A stretch of DNA of 64,000 nt from Paludisphaera mucosa. GTDB taxonomy: Bacteria; Planctomycetota; Planctomycetia; Isosphaerales; Isosphaeraceae. Under the pieces are notes generated by a model, which had not been told where the DNA came from, made no database searches, and saw only the letters and a program-made list of their open reading frames with translations. The position numbers and the translations under genes are program-made. Where the stretch lies: NCBI RefSeq assembly GCF_029589435.1, contig NZ_JARRAG010000002.1:310001-374000 (forward strand), in the 5' to 3' direction. Positions 5,625 to 59,231 of this stretch are shown here, one piece after another (position 1 is the first letter of the stretch; each line of letters starts with the position of its first letter).

Positions 5625-6690
5625 GGCGAGTACGATCGGCTCGTGGCCGAATGGTTGTCCAGAGGCCGGAGGGTCCCCGGTCTCGGAGTCCCATCGGGGG
5701 ACGACCCCGCCGGTCGATCCGTCGCCGAGGTCATCCTCGCCTACATCCACTTCGCCGACGGCTACTAGACGAAGAATGGTTCGCCCGCCTCCGAAGTCCG
5801 GAACATCAAGCTCGCCCTCCGCCCGCTTCGATGGCTCTACGGCCCCAGCCGACTTCGGGCCGCTCGCGCTGAAGGCGGTCCGTCAGGCGACGATCGAGCT
5901 GGGGATCTGCCGCAAGGAGGTCAACAAGCGGATCCGCCACATCGTCCGCATGTTCCGGTGGGCGGTGGAGAACGAGCTGGTCGCGCCGACGGTCCACGCG
6001 GCGCTGAAGGCCGTCCGGGGGGGCTCTCCAGGGGGAGGGGACCGAGGCCCGGGAGTCCGCCCCGTGAGGCCCGTCCCCGACGCCGCGGTGGACGCCATAC
6101 GTCCATACGCCTCGCGCCAGGTGTGGGCGATGATCGAGCTCCAACGCTTGACCGGCATGCGGCCCGGCGAGGTTTGCCAGATTCGACCGTGCGACGTCGA
6201 TCGGGGCGAGCGTACCTGGACCTACACCCCGGACAGCCACAATACCGAGCATCACGGCAAGGTCCGGAGGATCTATTTCGGCCCCCGAGCCCGCGAGGTC
6301 CTCCTGCCCTGGCTGCTGCGAGACTCGACGGCGTTCCTGTTCTCTCCGGCCGAAGCGGTGGCCGAGCGGCTGGCCGCCATGCGGGCGCGCCGCAAGTCGC
6401 CCGTCCAGCCGTCGCAGCTCGATCGATCGAAGGCCGACCCGGCCCGCAGCCCGCGCGACCGTTATGACGTGTCCGCTTACAATCGAGCGATCGATTACGC
6501 CTGTCGCAAGGCCGGCCTGCCCAAATGGCACCCTCACCAACTCAGGCACAACGCGGCCACGCTGCTCCGGAAGGAGTTCGGCCTGGAGACGGCCAGGGCG
6601 GTCCTCGGTCACGGCTCCACCGCAGAGACCGAAATCTATGCCGAGATCGACCCGCACGAGGCCGTCGCCGCGATGGAACGAATCGGCTGA
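5505..6690 (+). pseudogene. Tyrosine recombinase (island integrase), interrupted by amber stop and frameshift
   Basis: The planctomycete-type integrase starts at the GTG/ATG region near 5505 after a GGAGGT site, with the N-terminal segment AYRHHRPSGQAVVTLSG. In that frame a TAG at 5766-5768 interrupts the protein after ILAYIHFADGY. Homologous sequence continues beyond it (KNGSPASEVRNIKLALRPLR), and then the frame shifts near 5850. The downstream frame (to 6690) holds the core-binding region and the complete catalytic domain: Arg in LTGMRPGE, HQLRH, LGH and the nucleophile Tyr in EIYAEID. The enzyme is therefore dead unless both lesions are bypassed. The amber codon is notable because a CUA-anticodon tRNA lies at 42770-42852. 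One lesion could be a sequencing error; two argue for decay. Confidence 0.85.
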
Positions 6691-6789
6691 CGGCGACACC
6701 CGGCCAGGCACGCCGTCGACCAGCGTGGGCGCCTGTCGATCATGTCGATTGACGCGGTCATCCCTGGGTGGCCATGGAGGGCCCCAGGG

Positions 6790-7091
6790 ATGACAGCCTG
6801 CTCGACCGACCTCCGCCAGCAAGTGGCGGCCTGCGACGCAGGCGACGCCACCCGCGAGCAGGTCGCCGCCCACTTCTCGGTGGGTCTCTCGCATGGATCC
6901 GCAAGCTGACCCGCCGGCGGCGCGAGACCGGCTCGATCGGCCCAGGCCTCGCGACGGCGGGCGGGCGCCGGCCTTCGACGCCGAGGCCGCCTCGCGGATC
7001 CACGAGGCGGTCCAGGCCGACGACGACGCCACGCTGCAGCAGTGGGCTCACGCCGCCGGCGTGGCGTGCCGCACCTCGGCCGTGCATCGGG
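6790..7091 (+). pseudogene. IS630-type transposase fragment (N-terminal helix-turn-helix part)
   Basis: Starts at the ATG at 6790 with STDLRQQVAACDAGDATREQVAAHFSV, a typical IS630 first helix-turn-helix cut here by a frameshift. It continues in other frames as WIRKLTRRRRETGSI and then FDAEAASRIHEAVQADDDATL and TSAVHRA. The catalytic DDE part is missing. An inverted repeat GTCATCCCTGG/CCAGGGATGAC (about 6759-6795) brackets the start and may be a hairpin from the old element end. Decayed debris next to the integrase. Confidence 0.75.
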
Positions 7092-7290
7092 CTGCAGGTG
7101 TCGGGCGTCGAGCCGACGAACAACGCGGCGGAGCGGATGTTGTTTCATGCGGTCTGCTGGAGGACGATCAGCTTCGGGACCGATTCGTCGAGTGGCTCGC
7201 GCTTCTTCGAACGCATCCTGACGACGATCGAATCCCGCCGCCAGTCCCGCGACCTGCTCGACTTCCTCGTTGAAGCCGCCTTCGCTCCTC
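7092..7290 (+). pseudogene. IS66-type transposase fragment (C-terminal)
   Basis: Joined directly to the IS630 debris, the frame beginning at 7092 reads VEPTNNAAERMLFHAV, WRTISFGTDSSSGSRF and ERILTTIE. This is the conserved C-terminal signature of IS66-family transposases (tnpC). Only about 65 residues remain. The abrupt join of two transposase families without spacer shows past recombination or deletion here. Confidence 0.8.
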
Positions 7291-7959
7291 CTACCCGGGG
7301 CGTGAACGGTCTCCCGGGCATGCTGCTGGTCTGCCTGACCTGCGATCTTCCGCCGGCCGCCTTCGTCCGTCTCGTTGGCCGGGGAGCGAAATCCGCCGCA
7401 CGCTCCCTCGATCCGCCGACCGGCAATACGGACCGGCCGCCGCGCGATTCGGCCCGCTCGGCGTTCGTCCTTCACGTCCCGGTGCAGGGTGACTGCCGCC
7501 GGCTGTGAGGCTGGGGGATCGCCAGGTCCCACGTAAGACCCCCCACCCACGCGCCAGGATGCCGACCGCCAGCGTGACGGCGACGACGAGCGTCACGGTG
7601 ACCGGGCCGAACCGCAGCAGGGTGCCACGCCCGGGAAGGGGATGTCGCATGATCCCCCGGAAGGCGACGTCCAGCAGCCCGAAGGCCAGGCACACGCCGG
7701 AGACGATCATGGCCGCGGTGATCATGACCATCGAACCGATGCTCTCCTCGTCTCCCATCGGCACCGCGAGCAAGGCGAGCAGCTCGAACAGGACGCCGAA
7801 CGCCAGCAGGAATCCACCCTGGAAGATCAGGAAATGGGACGCCAGGGCCGCCCCGGCGAGGATCGAGAGGCGGATGACGAGCCGGATGGTCCTGCTGGTC
7901 GTGGACTTGGCGACGACGGGATCGCCGGGCTCGACCCGATTGGCCGCCTCGGCGTCCAT
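7291..7959 (-). CDS. Membrane protein of unknown function, tail possibly replaced
   Basis: A 222-residue frame on the minus strand. Residues ~25-150 contain four strongly hydrophobic segments (starting IRLSILAGAAL, GFLLAFGVLF, SMVMITAAMIVSGVCLAFGLL and VTVTLVVAVTLAVGIL), so an integral membrane protein is likely. The first 24 residues are polar. After about residue 150 the sequence becomes Arg/Gly/Pro-rich and does not look like a folded domain. That part lies next to the IS66 remnant and may be non-native read-through. No family recognised. Confidence 0.5.
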   Translation of the reverse strand: MDAEAANRVEPGDPVVAKSTTSRTIRLVIRLSILAGAALASHFLIFQGGFLLAFGVLFELLALLAVPMGDEESIGSMVMITAAMIVSGVCLAFGLLDVAFRGIMRHPLPGRGTLLRFGPVTVTLVVAVTLAVGILARGWGVLRGTWRSPSLTAGGSHPAPGREGRTPSGPNRAAAGPYCRSADRGSVRRISLPGQRDGRRRPAEDRRSGRPAACPGDRSRPG

Positions 7960-28132: not shown

Positions 28133-28609
28133 ATGATCCGCATCCAATTGCCAGCCAAGGAGGTCGAGGACCTGGAGTCGGACCTGCGGGGGACCACCGA
28201 CCCGAAGCTCCGCACCCGGGTGCAGATCGTCCTGATGGCCCACCGGGGCCGCCCCCACGGCCAGATCGCCTGCGACACCGCCACCTCCCGCAGCACCGTC
28301 CAACGCTGGCTCAACGCCTACCCGGAGCGGGGCCTCGACGCCCTCCGGCCCCGCAAGCCGGGCAAGCCCCGACCCAAGCTGACCACATGACTCGCCCCAG
28401 TGCTCCAGAGTTGGGTCATCGAGGGGCCGCAGGCCTAGGGGCTGGATCGGGCCAACTGGACCCACGCCGAGTTGGCCGCTCACCTGTTCCGCACCCATGG
28501 CATCCGGGTCGGCAAGTCGGCGATGCAGGCCTTCTGCCGCAAGCACGACATCCGGCCGTATCGGCCGACCTACCGCTTCCTGCGAGGCGATCCCGAGAAG
28601 CAGGCCCGC
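28133..28609 (+). pseudogene. IS630-type transposase fragment
   Basis: The first 85 codons (from 28133) form a helix-turn-helix domain: RTRVQIVLMAHRGRPHGQIA, then SRSTVQRWLNAYPERGLDAL. After a stop, the homology continues in another frame with LFRTHGIRVGKSAMQAFCRKHDIRPYRPTY and FLRGDPEKQA, the link before the DDE domain in this IS630 subgroup. The catalytic part is missing: at about 28610 the sequence switches to the restriction enzyme gene. Confidence 0.8.
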
Positions 28610-30625
28610 CTGTGGATCACCGGCCTGGAGCCGGTCCATCGGAAGATCGGCGTGAAGACCGTCTTCGACCTGTCCGCCACGCCGTTCTACCTCAAGGGGT
28701 CCGGCTACCCGGAGGGGACGTTGTTCCCCTGGGTGGTCAGCGACTTCTCCCTGATGGACGCGATCGAGTCGGGCATCGTCAAGATCCCGCGCGTCCCCGT
28801 CGCCGACAACGCGATGACCGGCGACTACCCGAAATATCGCGACCTCTGGGTCCACATCCGCGACGGCCTGAAGGACGTGCGCCGGGGGCCGGAGGATGCC
28901 GGGACGCCCCCCCTCCTGCCCGGCCTGCTCGAAGGCGCGCTCCGGAGCCTGTACGGCCACTACGCGCGGAAGTTCGAGGAATGGGAGGCCGACGAGGAGT
29001 CGCGATCCAACGGCGGCACCCCGCCCGTGTTCATCGTCGTGTGCAACAACACGAACGTCAGCAAGGCCGTGTTCGACTACGTCTCGGGATACGAATCGGG
29101 GCGCCACCACCCCGACGGCGAGCCCGTCGTCGCCGGGGGCGACGTCTTGCCGCTGTTCGGCAACGTGAAGAATCAGCGCTGGATGCACCGGCCCAATACG
29201 ATCCTCGTGGACAGCCGACAGCTCGAATCCGGCGAGAGCATGTCCGACGACTTCAAGAAGCTCGCGAAGCACCAGATCGAGGACTTCAAGGCCGAGTACC
29301 GGCGGCGGTTCCCCGGGCGGGACGCCGAGAACCTGACCGACGAAGACCTGATGCGCGAGGTGCTGAACACCGTCGGCAAGCCCGGCAAGCTCGGCGAGCA
29401 GATCCGCTGCGTCGTGTCGGTGTCGATGCTCACCGAGGGATGGGACTGCAACACGGTCACGCACATCCTCGGCGTCCGGGCGTTCGGCACCCGGCTGTTG
29501 TGCGAGCAGGTGATGGGCCGCGGGCTGCGACGGCGGAGCTACGCCGTCGGCGAGGACGGGATGATGGTCCCGGAGTACGCCGACATCTTCGGCGTGCCGT
29601 TCAGCGGCTTCCCGGTCGCCGGGCTGCCCGAGGAACGCGCGCCGGCCACGCCGAAGCCCGGCAAAGCCGTGCGGGCGGTCCCCGAACGCCTGGTTGGCGC
29701 GCCCTGGCTCGAAGTGACCTTCCCCCGCGTCGTCGGCTACCGGTTCGACGTCCCGGCCGATCGCCTCTCGGCGCGGTTCGACGCCTCGCACCGCGAGGTC
29801 CTGACCACCCAGGACATGCCGACGACCACCCTGAACGCCCCGATCATGGGCGAGAACGCCGAGCTGACGCTGGGCGACGCGCGGGGGATGCGGCCCCAGG
29901 CGGTCGCCTTCCGGCTCGCCACCCACCTGCAACAGCGCCACTTCCCCGACAAGTCCTGGCTGTTCCCGCAACTGGTCGGCATCGTCCGGGACTGGCTCGG
30001 CGACCCCGACGGCGACTCGCCGAACGTCGACTACGGCGACGACACGTTCCCGGGCCTGCTCCTCTTCGGCGAGAAGAAGCACGCGGTCTGCGAGAAGATC
30101 AGCCGGGCGATCATCGCGGCGTCGGGCGGGGCCCAGCGGCTCCGGGCCGAGACGCAGCGCGACGACGCCCTCGGGACCACGGCCGGCGTCTCCTTCGACA
30201 CCGTGAAGACCTGCTGGACGACCGAGCCGACGAAATGCCACATCAACCTCGTCCCGCAGGACAGCGATTGGGAGACCATCGTCTGCCAGAAGCTCGAAGA
30301 GATCGACGAGGTGCGAGCCTACGCCAAGAACCAGGGGATCGGTTTCCGCATCCCCTACACCTGCGACGGCCGGCCCGGCAACTACTACCCGGACCTGATC
30401 GTCAAGCTCGACGACGGCCGCGGGACGACGGACCTCCTCAATTTGGTCCTGGAAGTGTCCGGGCAGCGGAAGAAGGAGAAGGACGCGAAGGTGCAGACGA
30501 CGAAGACCATGTGGGTGCCGGGCGTGAACAACCTCGGAGCCTTCGGCCGATGGGCGTTCCTGGAGATCGACGGCTCGAACCTCCACAAGACGAAGCAGGA
30601 GATCCGCAAGCTCCTCGACGGGTAG
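28610..30625 (+). pseudogene. Type III restriction enzyme Res subunit, N-terminally truncated
   Basis: From about 28640 the frame reads KIGVKTVFDLSATPFYLKGSGYPEG, the SAT motif III of the helicase core of planctomycete-type Type III Res subunits. It follows with IESGIVKIPRVPVADNAMTG and CNNTNVSKAVFDYV. Motifs V/VI appear as SMLTEGWDCNTVTHILGVR and QVMGRGLRR. About 670 residues remain, including the C-terminal nuclease-like region (NYYPDLIVKLDDG, with DGRGTTDLLNLVLEVSG). Walker A and the DExH box (motifs I-II) are gone, replaced by IS630 debris with which the remnant forms one chimeric open frame from 28472. It cannot be an active translocase. The paired mod gene follows and is broken too. Confidence 0.85.
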
Positions 30626-30886
30626 ATCCACGGGGCTGTTTACCCAAACAGGCCCTTTGGGTAAACACGCTTTCGGCCATCGGCGTTCGCGTGAATAGCC
30701 TGCATCCGCGACTTGCAGAAGACTTTGCACCGCCTCCCGCTCACATCGGTCAATACGCCCGAAGGAGCCGGGACGCCTCGTGAAACCCCTGTCCGCGGCG
30801 CAAACGGATCGACCGTGCCGACCAGATACTCGGGCTGCTCGACCAGCCGCTGACCGACGACTCTCCCACGCCCTGAAGGTGCCACG

Positions 30887-31503
30887 ATGGCGAAGAAGAA
30901 GCCCGCAGCCGCCTCCGTCCCCGTCGACTCGCACAAGCACGTCGCCGACACGCGGCCGAACATCCCGACGCGGGAGACGGCGGCGTTCGCCGACGACGGG
31001 ATCGGCCGGGCCGTGTATCAGCGCGACCGCTCGCTCGACCCGCAGCTCGTCTGGAAGGGGAAGGACGAGCAGGACGCGCGGCCGTTCGAGGTCCCCGCGG
31101 TGCCGCTGCACGTCCAGGAGAAGATCCACCCGCAGGCGATCGTCGAGGATGTGAAGCGTCGGGCGGCCGGCGCCAGGCCCGCCGCGAACACCCAGCTCGA
31201 CCTGTTCGCCGACTTCAACGGCCTGGACGACTTCGCCAAGAAGCTGGAGTTCTACCAGCACGACCAGCACTGGACCAACCGCCTCATCCTCGGCGACAGC
31301 CTGCTCGTCATGGCCAGCCTCGCCGAGAAGGAGCGGCTCCGCGGCCAGGTCCAGTGCATCTACTTCGACCCGCCCTACGGCATCAAGTTCGGCAGCAACT
31401 GGCAGGTCAGCACCCGCAAGCGCGACGTCAAGGACGCCAAGGCCGAAGACCTCACCCGCCAGCCCGAGCAGATCAAGGCCTTCCGCGACACCTGGGAACT
31501 CGG
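30887..31503 (+). pseudogene. Type III-like DNA methyltransferase (mod), N-terminal half
   Basis: Starts at the ATG at 30887 and reads about 205 residues of a planctomycete mod subunit: DTRPNIPTRETAAF, LDPQLVWKGKDEQD and QEKIHPQAIVEDV. The TNRLILGDSLLVMASL and YFDPPYGIKFGSNWQ segments contain the DPPY catalytic motif IV of beta-type adenine/cytosine amino-methyltransferases. Homology breaks off after AFRDTWELG at about 31503. Sixty bases later an IS5 element begins. The matching C-terminal part is found at 35233-36017 in the same orientation, so the gene was split by about 3.7 kb. Confidence 0.85.
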
Positions 31504-31561
31504 CATGGGCTCGATACCGACTGGCTGGCTAGTATTTCGGTTAGACGTGCTGATATCTCGA

Positions 31562-32394
31562 TCCTGTCCAATAAGGGCTGATTTCACCGGCGAAGGCGTC
31601 GGATCATCAGGTGGATCATGGCGATCTTGATGAAGGCCTCGCTGCTCTCGATCGTCCGCTCGTACTCCTTGGAGAGCCGGCGGGAGCGGCCCAGCCATCC
31701 GAACGTCCGCTCCACGATCCAGCGTTTCGGCTGGACCACGAACCCGACCTGGCCGGCCAACTTCCGCACCGCCACGCCGACCCAGGCCCACATGATCCGG
31801 CCGTGCGTCAGGGCCGTGTCGAAATGCGAGTCGCCCCAGACGACCTTCAGTCTCTTGACCGCCTCACGCAGCCGGTCCATCAGCGGCGGCCCGCCGGCGC
31901 GATCCTGGACGTCGGCCGGTACGACCATCAACGCCCAGATCAGCCCGCGAGTGTCGACGGCCACGAATCGCTTGCGGCCCGCCGTCTTTTCCCCCCCGTC
32001 GTAGCCGTTGGGGGAGCTGTACTCGGTCCCCTTGACCGTCTGGCCGTCGACGATGGCGACCGACGGCTTGGGCTTCTTGCCGACGGCCCGTCGCACCTTG
32101 GCGCGGAGGGCGTCGTGGACGCGGTCCCAGGTACCGTCGGCCTGCCAGGCCCGGAAGTAATGGAAGACGATTCGATACGGCGGCAGGTCGTGCGGCAGGG
32201 CCCGCCAGGTTCAGCCGTTCCGCGTCTGGTACAGGATCGCGTCGATTAAATCCCGCCGCTCATACCGCGCGGGCCGGCCGCCCGGCTTGGGGCGGGGGAC
32301 GTAGGGCTCGATAAGCCGCCATTGGCGGTCCGTCAGGTCGGTCGGGTAGGGTGTCCGGCTCATGCCATCCAGACTATCGGCCCCCTCTTCTGGA
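31562..32394. mobile_element. IS5-family insertion sequence (ends approximate)
   Basis: Imperfect terminal inverted repeats are visible: TCCTGTCCAATAAGGG near the left end (from about 31563) and, as complement, CCTTGTCCAGAAGAGGG near the right end (about 32382-32398). It encodes one leftward transposase interrupted by a TGA. It sits at the break of the mod gene. Exact boundaries and target duplication could not be fixed by eye. Confidence 0.75.
31584..32363 (-). pseudogene. IS5-family transposase with internal TGA
   Basis: The frame from the ATG at 32363 reads YPTDLTDRQWRLIEPYVP, then RRDLIDAILYQTRNG. A TGA at 32211-32213 interrupts it, and it continues in the same frame as TWRALPHDLPPYRIVFHYF. 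The rest holds the DDE core of the IS427-like IS5 group: IVDGQTVKGTEY, VVWGDSHFD and the Glu in RWIVERTFGWLGRSRRLSKEYE. Relatives usually have Cys or Ser at the stop position, so one substitution explains the lesion. The stop is not at a frameshift site, so this copy is probably dead. Confidence 0.85.
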
Positions 32395-42769: not shown

Positions 42770-42852
42770 TGGGTGTGGAGGGATTTGAACCCCCTCAGTC
42801 AGGGACACCGCGTTTAGAGCGCGGCCCGGCTCTCCAACTCCGGCGCACACCC
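42770..42852 (-). tRNA. Class II tRNA with CUA (amber) anticodon, tRNA-Tyr-like
   Basis: An 83-base cloverleaf. Acceptor GGGTGTG pairs with CACACCC and the discriminator is A. The D stem is CCGG/CCGG with GG in the loop. Anticodon stem CCGCG/CGCGG encloses loop CTCTAAA, giving anticodon CUA (plus-strand bases 42815-42817). The 13-base variable arm includes GTC-CCT-GAC, and the T arm has loop TTCAAAT. All stems pair well. The anticodon loop equals that of the E. coli supF amber suppressor, and the variable arm and A73 fit tRNA-Tyr. It should therefore read UAG. No CCA is encoded. First to be listed of three class II tRNAs spaced 6 bases apart. Confidence 0.85.
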
Positions 42853-42858
42853 GAAGAG

Positions 42859-42941
42859 CGGAAGCGGCAGGATTCGAACCTGCGGTGGTTGCCCGCACCT
42901 GGACAGCAACCAGGCACGATAAGCCTCTCTGACGCGCTTCC
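42859..42941 (-). tRNA. tRNA-Ser(GCU)-like, unusual D arm
   Basis: An 83-base gene with acceptor GGAAGCG/CGCTTCC, discriminator G, and anticodon stem CCTGG/CCAGG. The loop TTGCTGT gives anticodon GCU (plus-strand bases 42905-42907). The variable arm has 14 bases and the T arm is GCAGG-TTCGAAT-CCTGC. The D arm (TCAGAGAGGCTTATCGTG) hardly pairs and the anticodon loop ends in GT instead of the usual purines. The identity is likely Ser by anticodon, long arm and G73. The odd D arm may mean a decayed gene or an unusual structure. Confidence 0.65.
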
Positions 42942-42947
42942 AAGATG

Positions 42948-43030
42948 CGGAGGGAGAGGGAATCGAACCCCCAAGTCCTTGCGGACGGTAGTTTTCGAGA
43001 CTACTGCCTTACCAGTTAGGCTATCCCTCC
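42948..43030 (-). tRNA. tRNA-Ser(CGA)
   Basis: An 83-base class II tRNA. Acceptor GGAGGGA pairs with TCCCTCC and the discriminator is G. The D stem is GCCT/AGGC with loop AACTGGTA. Anticodon stem GTAGT/ACTAC encloses loop CTCGAAA, giving anticodon CGA (plus-strand bases 42995-42997) for UCG. The variable arm has a clear hairpin GTCC-GCAA-GGAC. The T loop is TTCGATT. All stems are intact. Upstream-most of the three tandem tRNAs on this strand. Confidence 0.88.
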
Positions 43031-53902: not shown

Positions 53903-54215
53903 CGCACGCCTCGTCGCGTCGGAGGGCGTATTCGGTGGGGGTCGTCGTCCCAGGTTACCGCCCCCGCGCGGGCGACGCCACTCCCGGGGCGGGGCGTGCA
54001 AGGCGGACGAGGTCGGGCGATCAGAATAACCGGGGGCCCGCGAGCGTCTCTAGAACGACCACGACCGCGAAGTCGGGCAGGATCGGTGGATTCCGCGCCC
54101 GGACGCCGGGACGCGCCGGGACTCCGTCGGCTATGATTACAGTCGATGGAGCGCGCCGCCCGGCGGCGACGGCGGAGGTCCTGGACTCGCTCAGCTCAGG
54201 GAGGCGGCGGCCTTG
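53903..54215. other. Divergent intergenic region
   Basis: About 310 bases between the zinc-ribbon gene (leftward) and the hydrolase-like gene (rightward). It presumably contains both promoters. No operator, repeat or gene stands out. Confidence 0.45.
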
Positions 54216-56552
54216 ATGCACGACTCATCGACGAGAGCGCGGGCCGGCGGGATCCCGGCGCGGCCGGCCCTGGCGGCGGCCCTCGCCCTGGCGATCGCGG
54301 CGGGCCTCGCCGTCCGCGGCGACACCGTGGTGATGAAGAACGGCGTGACCTACCGGACGGTGGCGGCCCCGGACCGCGACAACACGCTCGTGTTTTTGTG
54401 GGACGGCCTCAAGAAGATCGTGGTCCGCGACTCCAAGATCGAGCGCGTGGTCGCCGACAACGTCCTGCGCACCGGCGAGAAGTTCTCGCTGGTGCAGCCG
54501 ATGACGGTCCACGCCGGGCTCATGCCGAAAGAGGTCGTGAGCGTGACGGCCGAGCCCTGGAACGAGAAGGGCCGGCGGCGGTTCCAGTACCTCGGGCGGT
54601 CGAGCAAGCCCATCGTCATGGAACAAGCGATCAACGAGATCAGCCCGAACGTAATCCGCTACCGCGGCGTCGACGGCTTCTGGCAAGGCCAGATCGCGAC
54701 CCGGGGCGTCCCCCGCGAGGTCTTGATGGGCCTGCTCCGCCGCGTCGAGCAGCAGAACCAGGGGGAGCGCGAGCGGGTCGTCCGCTTCCTGATGGGGGCC
54801 GGCTGGTATCCCGAGGCCAGGTCCGAACTGGATCGGCTCATCAAGGACTTCCCGAACAGCGACCTGAGCGAGCGCGCCTCGAACGCCCGCCAGTTCATCG
54901 TCCAGGCCGAGGCGACCCAGCGCCGGTCGGACGTCGACGCGATGCGCCGCGCCCAGCAGTTCAAGGCCGCGGCGGCCCTGCTGAAGACGTTCGACGACAA
55001 GGAGATCGGCACCGAGCTGCAGATCGAGGCCCGCGACCTGGCGCGTCGCGACGAGGATCAGCGGCAGGCGGACCTGGCCGTCGGCAACGAGCTGCGGCGG
55101 GTCGAGTTGAAGCTGGCCCCCCAGGTGCACGCGGCCTGGAAGGGCCGCCTGGCCGAGGTCCACAGGGCCCTGGCCGAGGCCCCCGACGCCGTCCGCGACC
55201 GCCTGGCCGCCTGGCGAAAGGCGAAGGCCGAGGCGACCGCGAGCGACGAGGCCGAGTTCGCCCTGGCGATGTCGGGCTACGTGGCGGGCCAGGATTCGGC
55301 CGTCCCCGACCTCGCCGCGGCCGGCGTGCTCTGGCAGGCCCGCGACGAGATCGCCGCCTACCTCACCAGCGCCGACGACACCTCGCGCGAGGAGATCGCG
55401 GCCCGGCTCGACGACCTGGAATGGCCCGAGGGGACCCCCGAGGCGCCCGGCTTCCGCAAGATGGAGCTGGCCGAGCGCATCTGCCGGCTCATGCCGCCCC
55501 CGCTGCGACGTGCGGCCGACGAGGCCGAAAAGGGCGTCATCAAGAACGTGGTCGAGGCCGACGACTCGATCCCGACGACCTACCTGGCGAAGCTGCCGCC
55601 CGAATACCACCACTCGCGGTCGTACCCGGCGGTCGTGGTCCTGCACTCGGGGACGGGCCCGCAGGCGGCCGTGGACGAGTGGCAGGCCGAGGCGGCGCGG
55701 CGGGGATACGTCCTGATCGCGCCCGAGTACGGGGCGGCCGAGGGCGCGACCGACTACCACTACACCCCGGGCGAGCACGCCGCCGTCGAGCTGGCGCTCC
55801 GCGACGCGCGGCGGCGGTACGCGATCGACCCCGACCGGGTCTTCGTGGCGGGCCAGCTCGCCGGCGGCAACATGGCCTGGGACCTCGGCCTGGGCCATCC
55901 CGACCTGTTCGCGGGGGTCGTGGTCGTCTCCGGCTTCCCGGCCAAGTACGTCCCCCGCAGCCTGGCCCAGCACGAGCGGCTCCCCCTGCTCTGCGTCCTG
56001 GGCGACCTGGCGCCGGCCGCGAACGAGGTCGTCTTCGGCAGCTACCTGAAGCCGATGATCCTCAAGGTCTGGGACGTCACCTACATGGAGGTCTACCGCC
56101 GCGGCCTTGAGGAGTTCCCCGAGGACGTCCCGACGTACTTCGACTGGATGGAGCCCCGCCGCCGCGAACCCTTCCCCAAGTCGTTCGAGGCGTCGACGGC
56201 GCGGACCTGCGACGACCGCCGCCACGGGATCGTCGTCAAGGGCTTCACCGAGGGCCGCACGACCGCCGCCGAGGCCGTCGAGCCGCTGGGCCGGAACCTC
56301 AACCCGGCGACGCTCAAGATGCGGACGAGCAGCCTCAGCAACCTCGTCGACCTGACCGTGAGCGGCGTCGACAAGCTTGACGTCTGGCTCAACCCGAAGC
56401 TCGTCGACTTCAAGCGCAAGCTGGAGGTCCGGGTCAACCGCAAGGCCCTCTACAAGGGCCAGCCGAAGCTCGACCTGCGGCCGATGCTCGAGGACCTCCG
56501 CCTGCGGGGCGACCGCGGCCAGATGTACTGGGTGAAGATCGAGGTCGGCTGA
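54216..56552 (+). CDS. Exported alpha/beta-hydrolase-like protein without nucleophile Ser
   Basis: A 778-residue protein. It has a signal or membrane segment near the start (ALAAALALAIAAGLAVRGD), a helical, tetratricopeptide-like middle (about 170-420) and an alpha/beta hydrolase domain (about 440-650). The oxyanion strand is AVVVLHSGTGP. The nucleophile elbow, normally GxSxG, reads GQLAGG with Leu548 in the Ser position. Folding motifs (DPDRVFVAG, GHPDLFAGVVVVSGF) are otherwise kept, so it is probably a non-catalytic relative, possibly with a binding or scaffold role. The ATG at 54216 is preferred to the TTG one codon upstream. Confidence 0.8.
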   Translation: MHDSSTRARAGGIPARPALAAALALAIAAGLAVRGDTVVMKNGVTYRTVAAPDRDNTLVFLWDGLKKIVVRDSKIERVVADNVLRTGEKFSLVQPMTVHAGLMPKEVVSVTAEPWNEKGRRRFQYLGRSSKPIVMEQAINEISPNVIRYRGVDGFWQGQIATRGVPREVLMGLLRRVEQQNQGERERVVRFLMGAGWYPEARSELDRLIKDFPNSDLSERASNARQFIVQAEATQRRSDVDAMRRAQQFKAAAALLKTFDDKEIGTELQIEARDLARRDEDQRQADLAVGNELRRVELKLAPQVHAAWKGRLAEVHRALAEAPDAVRDRLAAWRKAKAEATASDEAEFALAMSGYVAGQDSAVPDLAAAGVLWQARDEIAAYLTSADDTSREEIAARLDDLEWPEGTPEAPGFRKMELAERICRLMPPPLRRAADEAEKGVIKNVVEADDSIPTTYLAKLPPEYHHSRSYPAVVVLHSGTGPQAAVDEWQAEAARRGYVLIAPEYGAAEGATDYHYTPGEHAAVELALRDARRRYAIDPDRVFVAGQLAGGNMAWDLGLGHPDLFAGVVVVSGFPAKYVPRSLAQHERLPLLCVLGDLAPAANEVVFGSYLKPMILKVWDVTYMEVYRRGLEEFPEDVPTYFDWMEPRRREPFPKSFEASTARTCDDRRHGIVVKGFTEGRTTAAEAVEPLGRNLNPATLKMRTSSLSNLVDLTVSGVDKLDVWLNPKLVDFKRKLEVRVNRKALYKGQPKLDLRPMLEDLRLRGDRGQMYWVKIEVG

Positions 56553-59231
56553 TCTGCCCTAATGACTCACCGGCTTTGCATGCACCAAATGAGAAATCAA
56601 GCATCCTAACCATTCCTGCGGCCGCATCACCTTGCTAAACGATGATCGACGACCATTCGGTTTGACACGATGTTGCAAGTCTCGCTCGAATACGTCAAAG
56701 TTGATCAAGGACATCTAAAAGAGCTCGCAAAAGAGAAAGGGCTAGGAATCCATGCAAGTCACGAACGAGAATACTCTAAGAAAGGCGTTTGCCGGCGGAA
56801 TCAATCTGTTTCTCGGTGCCGGCTTCTCAGTGCTGGCCAAGAATGCCGAGGGACGGGCGCTTCCAGTAGGTCGGACACTTAACGAGGAGCTCGGCACCCT
56901 TTTCAAAGTAGACGGAGTGGATCATTTGACTCTCGCCCAACTCTGCACGATCATCCAGTCGGAAAGACGTCAGGAGTTGGACGACTATCTGCGACGCCGC
57001 TATAGAGTGAAGTCGTTCGACCCGAGATATTCGGCTGTACAAACACTGAATATCAAGAATATATTCACCACCAATATAGACGACCTAATACAGTCTATGT
57101 ACGCCGCCAGCAAAACCCACTACCTGAACAATATCACACTAAGAGGTGCGTCCTTCAACGAGAAAAGGGCGATCGATTTCGCACCCCTACATGGATCGGT
57201 CACTGACGAAACACGCCAGTTGACTTTCGGGACCCTCGATCTAGCCACGGCGTTCGCATCTGACCAAGATCTCTGGAGCTTCTTCATGAGAAGCATCCAA
57301 TTGTTCCCCACACTCTTCTGGGGATACAGCCTCAGCGACGCCGGGGTTCTGCAAGCATTAAACCCTAGTTCTATCAACATGCGTCAGCACGAGGACAAAT
57401 GGATCGTACTTAGAACAAGAGACGATGCAGAGATCAGGTATTTCACGGCGTTAGGATTTCAAATCCTTATTGCCGAGACGAATGAAATGCTCGACTATAT
57501 ACGAGGCCTAGGTTTAGCCGTGCATCCAGCGGCTTCCCCAGTCTCCAAGTCGACCGAGGAACTCTTTCCCGAGGAGGCAATTCCTGCAATCGGCTCTGTT
57601 CCAGTTCGACCGCTTCAGGAATTTTTCTTCGGCGCCCCACCGTCGTGGAGCGATATATACTCACAGCGACTGCAACGAACTTCACACTACGCAAAGGTCG
57701 TCGATTCAATCAATGCACACCGAGACACAATAATCGTGGGAATGCCGGCCTCAGGCAAGACAACTCTATTAATGCAAGCGGCGGCGCACGTCAAATTCAC
57801 CGGACATAAACTTGTCTGCAATTCACTGACTCCTGAAAAAGTGCAACTTCTACTGCGTCGACTGGGGCCAGATCCTGCATTGATTTTCGTCGACAATTAC
57901 ACGGACAGCGTGGACGCATTCGTAGCACTCACTGGCGCCGCAAACGTAGTCGCAGTAGGAGTTGATCGCGACTTTAATTTCGAAGTAACGTCACACCTCT
58001 TGCCACTCAACGACATAAGCGTTATCAATATTACCGATTTAAGCGAACCTGATATCCAAAAGATATTCGAAAACGTCCCCCTCGACATTCGAACCTCTCA
58101 TCTAAATAGACCAAAAGTGGCGAGAGGGCTTCATCCATCTCTTTACGAGATTATCGAATCGAACATAACTAAGCCATCACTTCGAAAGCGATTTGCAGAA
58201 ATGCTCCGAAAGCTCGAAGGGAGCAGCCCAAACCACCTCGACTTGCTTGGCATGTGCTGCTATGTGCACTATTGCCGATGTCCCGTCTCCATGGAGACGA
58301 TAGCGGCCTTTCTCCGCGATGTGTTGTCCGATTACATGGAGGCCTATACATGGCTCGAGCAACTCGGCACTCTTATTTCAGAAGATGTCGGGCCACTGTT
58401 GGACCCACCTCAGGATTACTTTACTCCCCGGTCGAGCTTGGTATCCGAAGCGATTTTTCAACAGCTACCCCCCAAGTCGCTCAAACGAGTTCTCCTCAAG
58501 TTCCACAGAAATGTCTCGATTGTCAAGATATGCAGATACGATATTTTTCGAAGAAAGGCGTTTGATGCCGATATCGCTTACCGAGCCTTCTCAAACTGGG
58601 AAGAAGGCATCGAATTTTATGAGCTGGCATATAAACGAGACGGATCGTACTTCACCAAGCAGCAAGGCGCGCTTTACCTCTCCAAAAAGAAACGCTTCCC
58701 CGAAGCATTCCGCTTGATTGACGAAGCCATCTCAATGAGCAGGGGCAGGATTTTCTCGATTCGAAACACGCATGCGATGCTCTTGTTTCAAGCCAACATC
58801 TTGCAGGATCACGATGACAAGACAGTGCGCGCCACCCTCTGCCGAAGCATGGAAATACTCAACGAGTGCCATACTCAGGACAGGCGCAAGCTATACCACG
58901 CTATAGTGTTTGGCAAACAGGCGGTCGAGTTCCATAATGTGTATTCCGATGATATCTCTAAAAGCTACCTCGAACTTGCAGACAAATGGCTCACCGAGGA
59001 AGTCAGACGTTCGCCATGGAACTACGACGTCCGACACGTGCATAACAATGTCAGACTATTAAATGCAAATTAGAGACAAGCGTATTTTGAACTAAGCTGT
59101 AACTAGTGACGCGTCACACGCTAACTACCGCATTGTCAAGGCAGCAATGTCTTGACAATATGACCTCGAATAGACCTTCTCTGCTTTGCAGCCCACGATC
59201 CGATAGCCGAGCCCGGGAGCGCTTCGTGACG
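56553..59231. other. AT-rich insertion carrying one gene
   Basis: The base composition changes abruptly: roughly half A+T here against about 70 percent G+C on both sides, and the codon use of the single gene inside follows the low-GC pattern (many ATA, TTA, AGA). No integrase, IS, terminal repeat or tRNA was found at the edges; the flanking genes are intact. It looks like a recently gained segment between the hydrolase-like gene and the amylase gene. Confidence 0.8.
56752..59073 (+). CDS. SIR2-domain plus P-loop (STAND-like) NTPase, predicted defence protein
   Basis: A 773-residue cytoplasmic protein. Residues 1-~280 form a SIR2-like NAD-binding domain: FLGAGFS at 20-26, FTTNIDD at 105-111, and the catalytic-type His147 in LHGS. 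A P-loop ATPase follows: Walker A GMPASGKTT at 330-338, Walker B ALIFVDNY with Asp381. The part after ~560 is helical and repeat-like (YELAYKRDGSYFTKQQGALYL). SIR2 fused to a STAND-type NTPase occurs in antiphage proteins such as Avs5, where phage sensing leads to NAD depletion; the role here is inference. AGGA precedes the ATG. The gene ends in TAG and is the only one in an AT-rich insertion. No partner gene is visible. Confidence 0.82.
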   Translation: MQVTNENTLRKAFAGGINLFLGAGFSVLAKNAEGRALPVGRTLNEELGTLFKVDGVDHLTLAQLCTIIQSERRQELDDYLRRRYRVKSFDPRYSAVQTLNIKNIFTTNIDDLIQSMYAASKTHYLNNITLRGASFNEKRAIDFAPLHGSVTDETRQLTFGTLDLATAFASDQDLWSFFMRSIQLFPTLFWGYSLSDAGVLQALNPSSINMRQHEDKWIVLRTRDDAEIRYFTALGFQILIAETNEMLDYIRGLGLAVHPAASPVSKSTEELFPEEAIPAIGSVPVRPLQEFFFGAPPSWSDIYSQRLQRTSHYAKVVDSINAHRDTIIVGMPASGKTTLLMQAAAHVKFTGHKLVCNSLTPEKVQLLLRRLGPDPALIFVDNYTDSVDAFVALTGAANVVAVGVDRDFNFEVTSHLLPLNDISVINITDLSEPDIQKIFENVPLDIRTSHLNRPKVARGLHPSLYEIIESNITKPSLRKRFAEMLRKLEGSSPNHLDLLGMCCYVHYCRCPVSMETIAAFLRDVLSDYMEAYTWLEQLGTLISEDVGPLLDPPQDYFTPRSSLVSEAIFQQLPPKSLKRVLLKFHRNVSIVKICRYDIFRRKAFDADIAYRAFSNWEEGIEFYELAYKRDGSYFTKQQGALYLSKKKRFPEAFRLIDEAISMSRGRIFSIRNTHAMLLFQANILQDHDDKTVRATLCRSMEILNECHTQDRRKLYHAIVFGKQAVEFHNVYSDDISKSYLELADKWLTEEVRRSPWNYDVRHVHNNVRLLNAN

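Follow-up and report, generated by a model that had tools for sequence, protein, structure and literature searches.

In a stretch of 64,000 nucleotides from the planctomycete Paludisphaera mucosa, hereafter the window (contig NZ_JARRAG010000002.1, positions 310,001 to 374,000), one gene of foreign composition encodes a protein in which a SIR2-like domain is joined to a P-loop NTPase of STAND type and to a conserved C-terminal region. Here, we describe this gene and its relatives, which form a family of full-length proteins found sporadically in several bacterial phyla. Most probably, it is an NLR-like anti-phage system that consists of this one horizontally acquired gene, with SIR2, STAND and sensor parts, and by analogy with characterised SIR2 systems it would abort infection through loss of NAD+. 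This reading draws on the domain order, on the conserved catalytic and Walker residues, on the insertion of the gene at an otherwise empty site, on the spread of the family across phyla and on the placement of its relatives in anti-phage hotspots. Single-gene SIR2-STAND defence is a known kind of system; the family itself is unnamed in the defence databases that were searched.

Results

Composition of the gene and its insertion between conserved neighbours

The gene, the segment in which it lies and the adjoining features are the following.

54213..56552, + strand: left neighbour, an ordinary high-GC gene outside the system; kept in congeners, without a Pfam match at E<=0.001
56567..59203, no strand: AT-rich inserted segment; boundaries to about 15 bp, from comparison with the empty sites of five congeners
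56752..59073, + strand: putative SIR2-nSTAND gene, the entire candidate defence system; intact, 773 aa, start ATG, stop TAG
59132..59159, no strand: 12-bp inverted repeat (hairpin) 3' of the SIR2-nSTAND gene; z = -4.1, without T-tract, single copy in the genome
59232..60698, + strand: right neighbour, an alpha-amylase family gene outside the system; kept in congeners, start set from congeners

The SIR2-nSTAND gene has a GC content of 0.50, against a mean of 0.679 (sd 0.037, minimum 0.586) over 38 further putative window genes, and no other gene of the window has a GC content this low. At third codon positions the values are 0.56 and 0.863, respectively. Rare codons of the TTA, ATA and AGA type are enriched about 10-20 fold, occurring per 1000 codons 7.8, 16.8 and 19.4 times in the gene against 0.4, 1.2 and 1.8 times in the other window genes. 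This composition falls well beyond the spread of the window. The reading frame was checked and contains no internal stop. An earlier, sequence-only reading had described a complete gene, the only one of low GC in the window, with a codon pattern foreign to the genome, and each of these observations holds. The low GC content is shared by the 199 bp located 5' of the gene (0.48) and by about 140 bp located 3' of it, so that the AT-rich stretch spans from just past the upstream stop codon to just ahead of the start of the alpha-amylase gene.

The same two flanking genes are adjacent in all five congeners compared (G001-G005). The distance between fixed anchors in the flanks is 73-85 bp in these genomes and about 2.69 kb in the window; therefore, the segment at about 56567-59203 is an insertion. 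A loss of this segment of about 2.6 kb, which would have had to occur five times, is less likely. The recent transfer of a single gene, proposed from its composition, is thus matched by a site that is empty in the five congeners. No integrase or target duplication was seen at the insertion, a repeat scan gave no convincing direct repeats in its flanks or inverted repeats at its ends, and the two intergenic parts that flank the gene have no extra copies elsewhere in its own genome. The planctomycete copy lies in no recognisable mobile element and stands alone, with no further defence gene next to it. The hairpin behind the gene is a possible transcript end. It was rejected as a feature of the family because the hairpins that exist in relatives have unrelated sequences. 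Transposase-like ORFs, judged by eye, are located at window positions 28472-32096, about 25 kb from the gene, and no link between them and the insertion was seen.

Domain organisation of the protein

The protein can be described as composed of three parts, in which the following features are located.

56791..57516, + strand: predicted SIR2-like NADase-type effector domain, residues ~14-255; Pfam SIR2_2 over residues 103-236
57616..57930, + strand: nSTAND_NTPase5-type P-loop NTPase core, residues 289-393; Pfam PF25199
57739..57765, + strand: Walker A motif GMPASGKTT, residues 330-338 (K336); G330, G335, K336 and T338 unchanged in 18 of 18 members
57880..57897, + strand: Walker B motif LIFVDN, residues 377-382 (D381); D381 in 16 of 18 members
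58462..58971, + strand: conserved C-terminal helical (TPR-like) region, residues ~571-740; highest conservation in the family

The combination of SIR2 and P-loop NTPase that had been read from motifs was recovered by profile search, with both matches above their curated cut-offs. The Pfam SIR2_2 match has an E-value of 2.6e-10 and 41 bits (cut-off 24.5), and the match to nSTAND_NTPase5 (PF25199) has an E-value of 3.2e-9 and 37.2 bits (cut-off 34). Both Pfam families are also matched by all 16 aligned homologues. A phmmer search of the protein against the PDB gave just one chance P-loop match. The SIR2 motifs consist of GAGFS at residues 22-26, TTNID at residues 106-110, which includes N108 and D110, and LHG at residues 146-148, which includes H147. 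Twelve residues, G22, G24, S26, N108, D110, G148, G191, D196, G330, G335, K336 and T338, are invariant in all 18 members. Position 147 is a histidine in 16 members and an asparagine in the other two (L033 and L037), which also have a glutamine at the position of D381. The catalytic Asn/Asp pair and the His/Asn position of SIR2 NADases are therefore conserved in the family, and NG in place of HG is also found in active Avs5.

The order of effector, NTPase and repeat part is present, with the STAND-type P-loop above its cut-off; the repeat part is weakly defined. A helical repeat tail had been proposed from the sequence. A TPR-like pattern is indeed discernible at about residues 637-665, but the best repeat profile for the tail, ARM_TT21_4th, matches weakly (E=0.19), so that the TPR assignment may be given only as a weak one. 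Mean pairwise identity within the family is 0.386 for region 571-740, compared with 0.355 for the SIR2 part and 0.315 for the NTPase part. Residues ~571-740 are a putative sensor or regulatory part.

Distribution of the family

Full-length relatives of the protein have 767-813 amino acids, are 28-48% identical to it and are found sporadically across several other bacterial phyla. A scan of GTDB genome contigs with the single protein gave no relatives, while a search with a two-row alignment gave 15 loci. These come from Kofleriaceae (Myxococcota), with 47% identity over the alignment, from Bacteroidota, Gammaproteobacteria, Alphaproteobacteria and Bacillota, and from one Gastranaerophilales and one Spirochaetia bin. 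A full-length relative with 31% identity is carried by a plasmid of an Oscillospiraceae bacterium, and IMG/VR holds further full-length relatives; a protein search of the phage collection found none. In Escherichia coli (E. coli), the family gene is present in 12 of 5426 complete genomes, and its product is 39% identical to the window protein. The protein WP_073461782.1 is an intact E. coli member. In one of the twelve genomes, E. coli P276M (L044, 12001-14306), the gene is split into three ORFs that are 95% identical to the intact copies, which is due either to a pseudogene or to sequencing errors.

Closer to the host, no family member was found in 99 relatives, which gave domain-level fragments at most, or in two samples of the phylum (392 and 294 genomes), which gave single-domain matches. 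The planctomycete matches, including G044, G097 and G143, were considered as members and rejected, being domain-level fragments only. In all 16 relatives measured, the GC content of the gene is lower than that of the surrounding locus.

Comparison with Avs5

The family resembles Avs5 in having a SIR2_2 effector, a STAND-type NTPase and a C-terminal repeat region within a single gene product of about 770 amino acids. The SIR2 and P-loop parts of the two align in the same order, and the N-terminal SIR2 domain (PF13289) with the motifs GAGxS, TxNxD and H/N-G is present in the family. These proteins could accordingly be taken for divergent members of AVAST type 5 (Avs5), if that name is stretched to cover every SIR2-STAND-repeat protein. 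We hold this to be unlikely, although several comparisons point in its direction. Besides the domain order and a length close to that of the 769-aa Avs5, a profile-profile alignment of the family with three Avs5 proteins covers residues 15-407 (E 8.7e-14), the A2 profile finds PDB chain 9nah (769 aa) at 1.6e-12, and the four published Avs5 clades themselves share only 18-21% identity (PMC12931631).

Model searches, the C-terminal half and phylogeny separate the two groups. The control was a bona fide 769-aa Avs5 encoded in a Kluyvera-family genome (L063), which scores 1177 bits with the NCBIfam model and 1463 bits with the PADLOC model. The window protein fails the NCBIfam Avs5 model NF041814, with 14.5 bits against a cut-off of 1000, and at E<=1 the PADLOC Avs5 model (PDLC02170) recovers none of 16 family members. 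Past residue 407 there is no alignment, and the C-terminal halves of family and Avs5 are unalignable. In a maximum likelihood tree of the SIR2-NTPase part, the 18 members are split from Avs5 and from a group of long SIR2-nSTAND5 proteins with 96% UFBoot support; Avs5 is represented in this tree by three sequences, none from the published Pseudomonas clades, and support inside the family is lower. The NTPase of Avs5 has been described as nSTAND3 (PF20720) (PMC12931631). That of the family is above the cut-off as nSTAND_NTPase5 and below it for nSTAND3 (20.9 bits, cut-off 27.2); the control Avs5, with 26.1 bits, is likewise below the nSTAND3 cut-off. By its sequence, the family falls outside the Avs5 equivalog. 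The separate lineage that the sequence-only reading had suspected is supported by the failed cut-off, the unalignable C-terminal halves and the tree. One of its arguments has to be dropped, however. A length of 773 residues with a short repeat part makes no distinction, because the Avs5 models span 763-771 positions and the control has 769 residues.

Other SIR2 proteins and published descriptions

A better alignment than with Avs5 is obtained with SIR2-nSTAND_NTPase5-TPR proteins of 1034-1048 amino acids encoded on plasmids of Vibrio, Klebsiella, Acinetobacter and Psychrobacter (L057, L058, L059 and L021), over 692 columns with an E-value of 5e-40. These proteins have SIR2 and nSTAND5 in common with the family and are about 270 amino acids longer, with a TPR match in L057 and L059. 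PADLOC models gave no coverage of them outside the SIR2 domain, and they are a further unnamed SIR2-STAND lineage. The protein of L059 has a weak cold-shock-like C-terminus. ThsA (Thoeris), DSR1/DSR2, SIR2-HerA and SIR2-APAZ/Argonaute share the SIR2-like NADase effector domain with the family, but they have other sensors and another layout and gave domain-level matches only.

No family-specific model that recognises the family was found in PADLOC 2.0 or NCBIfam 20. The openly accessible article texts that were searched held no name, phage challenge, NADase assay or structure for it, and a literature search for WP_073461782 gave no match. STAND proteins with a SIR2 effector and repeats have nevertheless been mentioned as a class in the P4 hotspot (Rousset et al. 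2022, PMC9122126). This class has the same architecture and the same psu-int site in E. coli, and it is likely to be the same as the present family. The term "undescribed", used of the gene earlier, is therefore too strong, while its narrower sense, that no family-specific name or model was found, stands.

Genomic context of the relatives

Two hotspots of anti-phage systems have been described, one in the psu-int interval of P4-like satellites and one at the cos-proximal gpA-gpQ (portal) site of P2-like phages (PMC9122126). Relatives of the gene occupy both. The E. coli copies, three of the 12 being examined in detail, have a partial psu on one side and an integrase on the other, at tRNA-Leu. 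In Kluyvera, a P4-like satellite runs from the alpha primase gene through psu and the SIR2-STAND gene to int, with alpha, psu and int complete; across two thirds of the alpha-psu stretch compared, this element shares about 78% identity with the DNA of phage P4. In an IMG/VR sequence (L082), a P2-like prophage has the gene shortly downstream of its terminase and portal genes. This placement, on the psu-int side in E. coli and Kluyvera and on the portal side in L082, does not extend to the window copy.

Other relatives are also often found in mobile elements, as the search for homologues and their neighbours proposed with the sequence-only reading has revealed. Prophage contexts comprise terminase, portal and protease genes (L031), spanin, endolysin and tail fibre genes (L039) and a baseplate and tail-fibre module (L083), with weaker phage matches in L037. 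An integrase adjoins the gene in L040, two serine recombinases enclose it in L034, and a Mob_Pre gene is near it in L032. A MvaI/BcnI restriction-modification set with Vsr is beside it in L025. For L024 and L026-L029, none of the neighbouring genes examined clearly belongs to a mobile element or to defence. In the Spirochaetia prophage (L031), the gene directly upstream of the family member, at 6281-7828, encodes a 515-aa SIR2 protein that corresponds to the PADLOC candidate PDC-S25 (E 3.7e-166, 552 bits), so that two SIR2 genes are adjacent.

That relatives sit in the defence hotspots of P4 and P2 supports a likely defence role, in line with the earlier proposal of a candidate defence gene. 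It could be asked whether such a gene guards its own mobile element or prophage against competing plasmids or like superinfecting phages and has no part in broad host defence. Satellites, prophages and plasmids do carry the family gene, and plasmids are targets of SIR2 effectors, SIR2-Argonaute among them, which would suit this role. We nevertheless give it little probability, as the systems of the P4/P2 hotspots are mostly active against other phage families (PMC9122126) and the planctomycete copy is outside any recognisable element. It is very improbable that the product works outside defence, in NAD-dependent signalling or in stress, or that the gene is a decaying foreign one without function here. 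The foreign codon usage of the window gene would suit such a reading; the full-length frame, all catalytic motifs in it and in nearly all relatives, and the placement of relatives in defence hotspots speak against it.

Discussion

The anti-phage system proposed here would most likely act as follows. In the resting state, the N-terminal SIR2-like, NAD+-consuming effector would be held off, with the central STAND NTPase as the switch and a sensing or regulatory role for the C-terminal region. A signal derived from the phage, received via the C-terminal part, would free the NTPase. The NTP-bound protein would then oligomerise and its SIR2 domains become active, so that NAD+ would be hydrolysed and the infection aborted. 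NADase activity, oligomerisation and abortive infection are proposed by analogy with Avs5 and other SIR2 systems. Defence by PaAvs5 needs N110, D112, the HG/NG site and the Gly and Lys of Walker A, and NAD+ loss has been measured (PMC12931631). The required residues correspond to the conserved positions N108, D110, H147-G148, G335 and K336 of the family, for which we infer an Avs5-like action.

A more tentative proposal, which we regard as possible but on balance doubtful, is that the family represents a separate, unnamed type of SIR2-STAND immune sensor, other than Avs5. Its C-terminal part, kept across several bacterial phyla, would then recognise one conserved phage feature or be switched by a host signal that is itself conserved. 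If so, this conserved C-terminal end would contrast with the fast-changing ends of NLR-like sensors. The present comparison brings single-gene NLR-like proteins together as one coherent family, which the defence models searched had overlooked. Its planctomycete copy is a clean insertion into an empty site, and its E. coli member WP_073461782.1 is intact and easy to clone. With this unusual C-terminal conservation, the question of what the sensor recognises is testable in E. coli.

Elsewhere in the window, three tandem tRNA genes are located at 42770-43030 on the - strand. They comprise Ser-CGA, an uncalled gene with a Ser-GCU anticodon loop and a gene called as Pyl (CUA) by ARAGORN. The "Pyl" gene is a copy of tRNA-Tyr. 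A second copy of the cluster is found in the same genome at G000:C2:2575502-2575825, and its Tyr-GUA gene differs from the "Pyl" gene in three bases, one of which turns GUA into the amber-reading CUA. The congener G003 has the tRNA cluster with GUA, and the four other congeners gave no match. Judged from these comparisons, the CUA copy of tRNA-Tyr is a candidate natural amber suppressor or a decaying duplicate.
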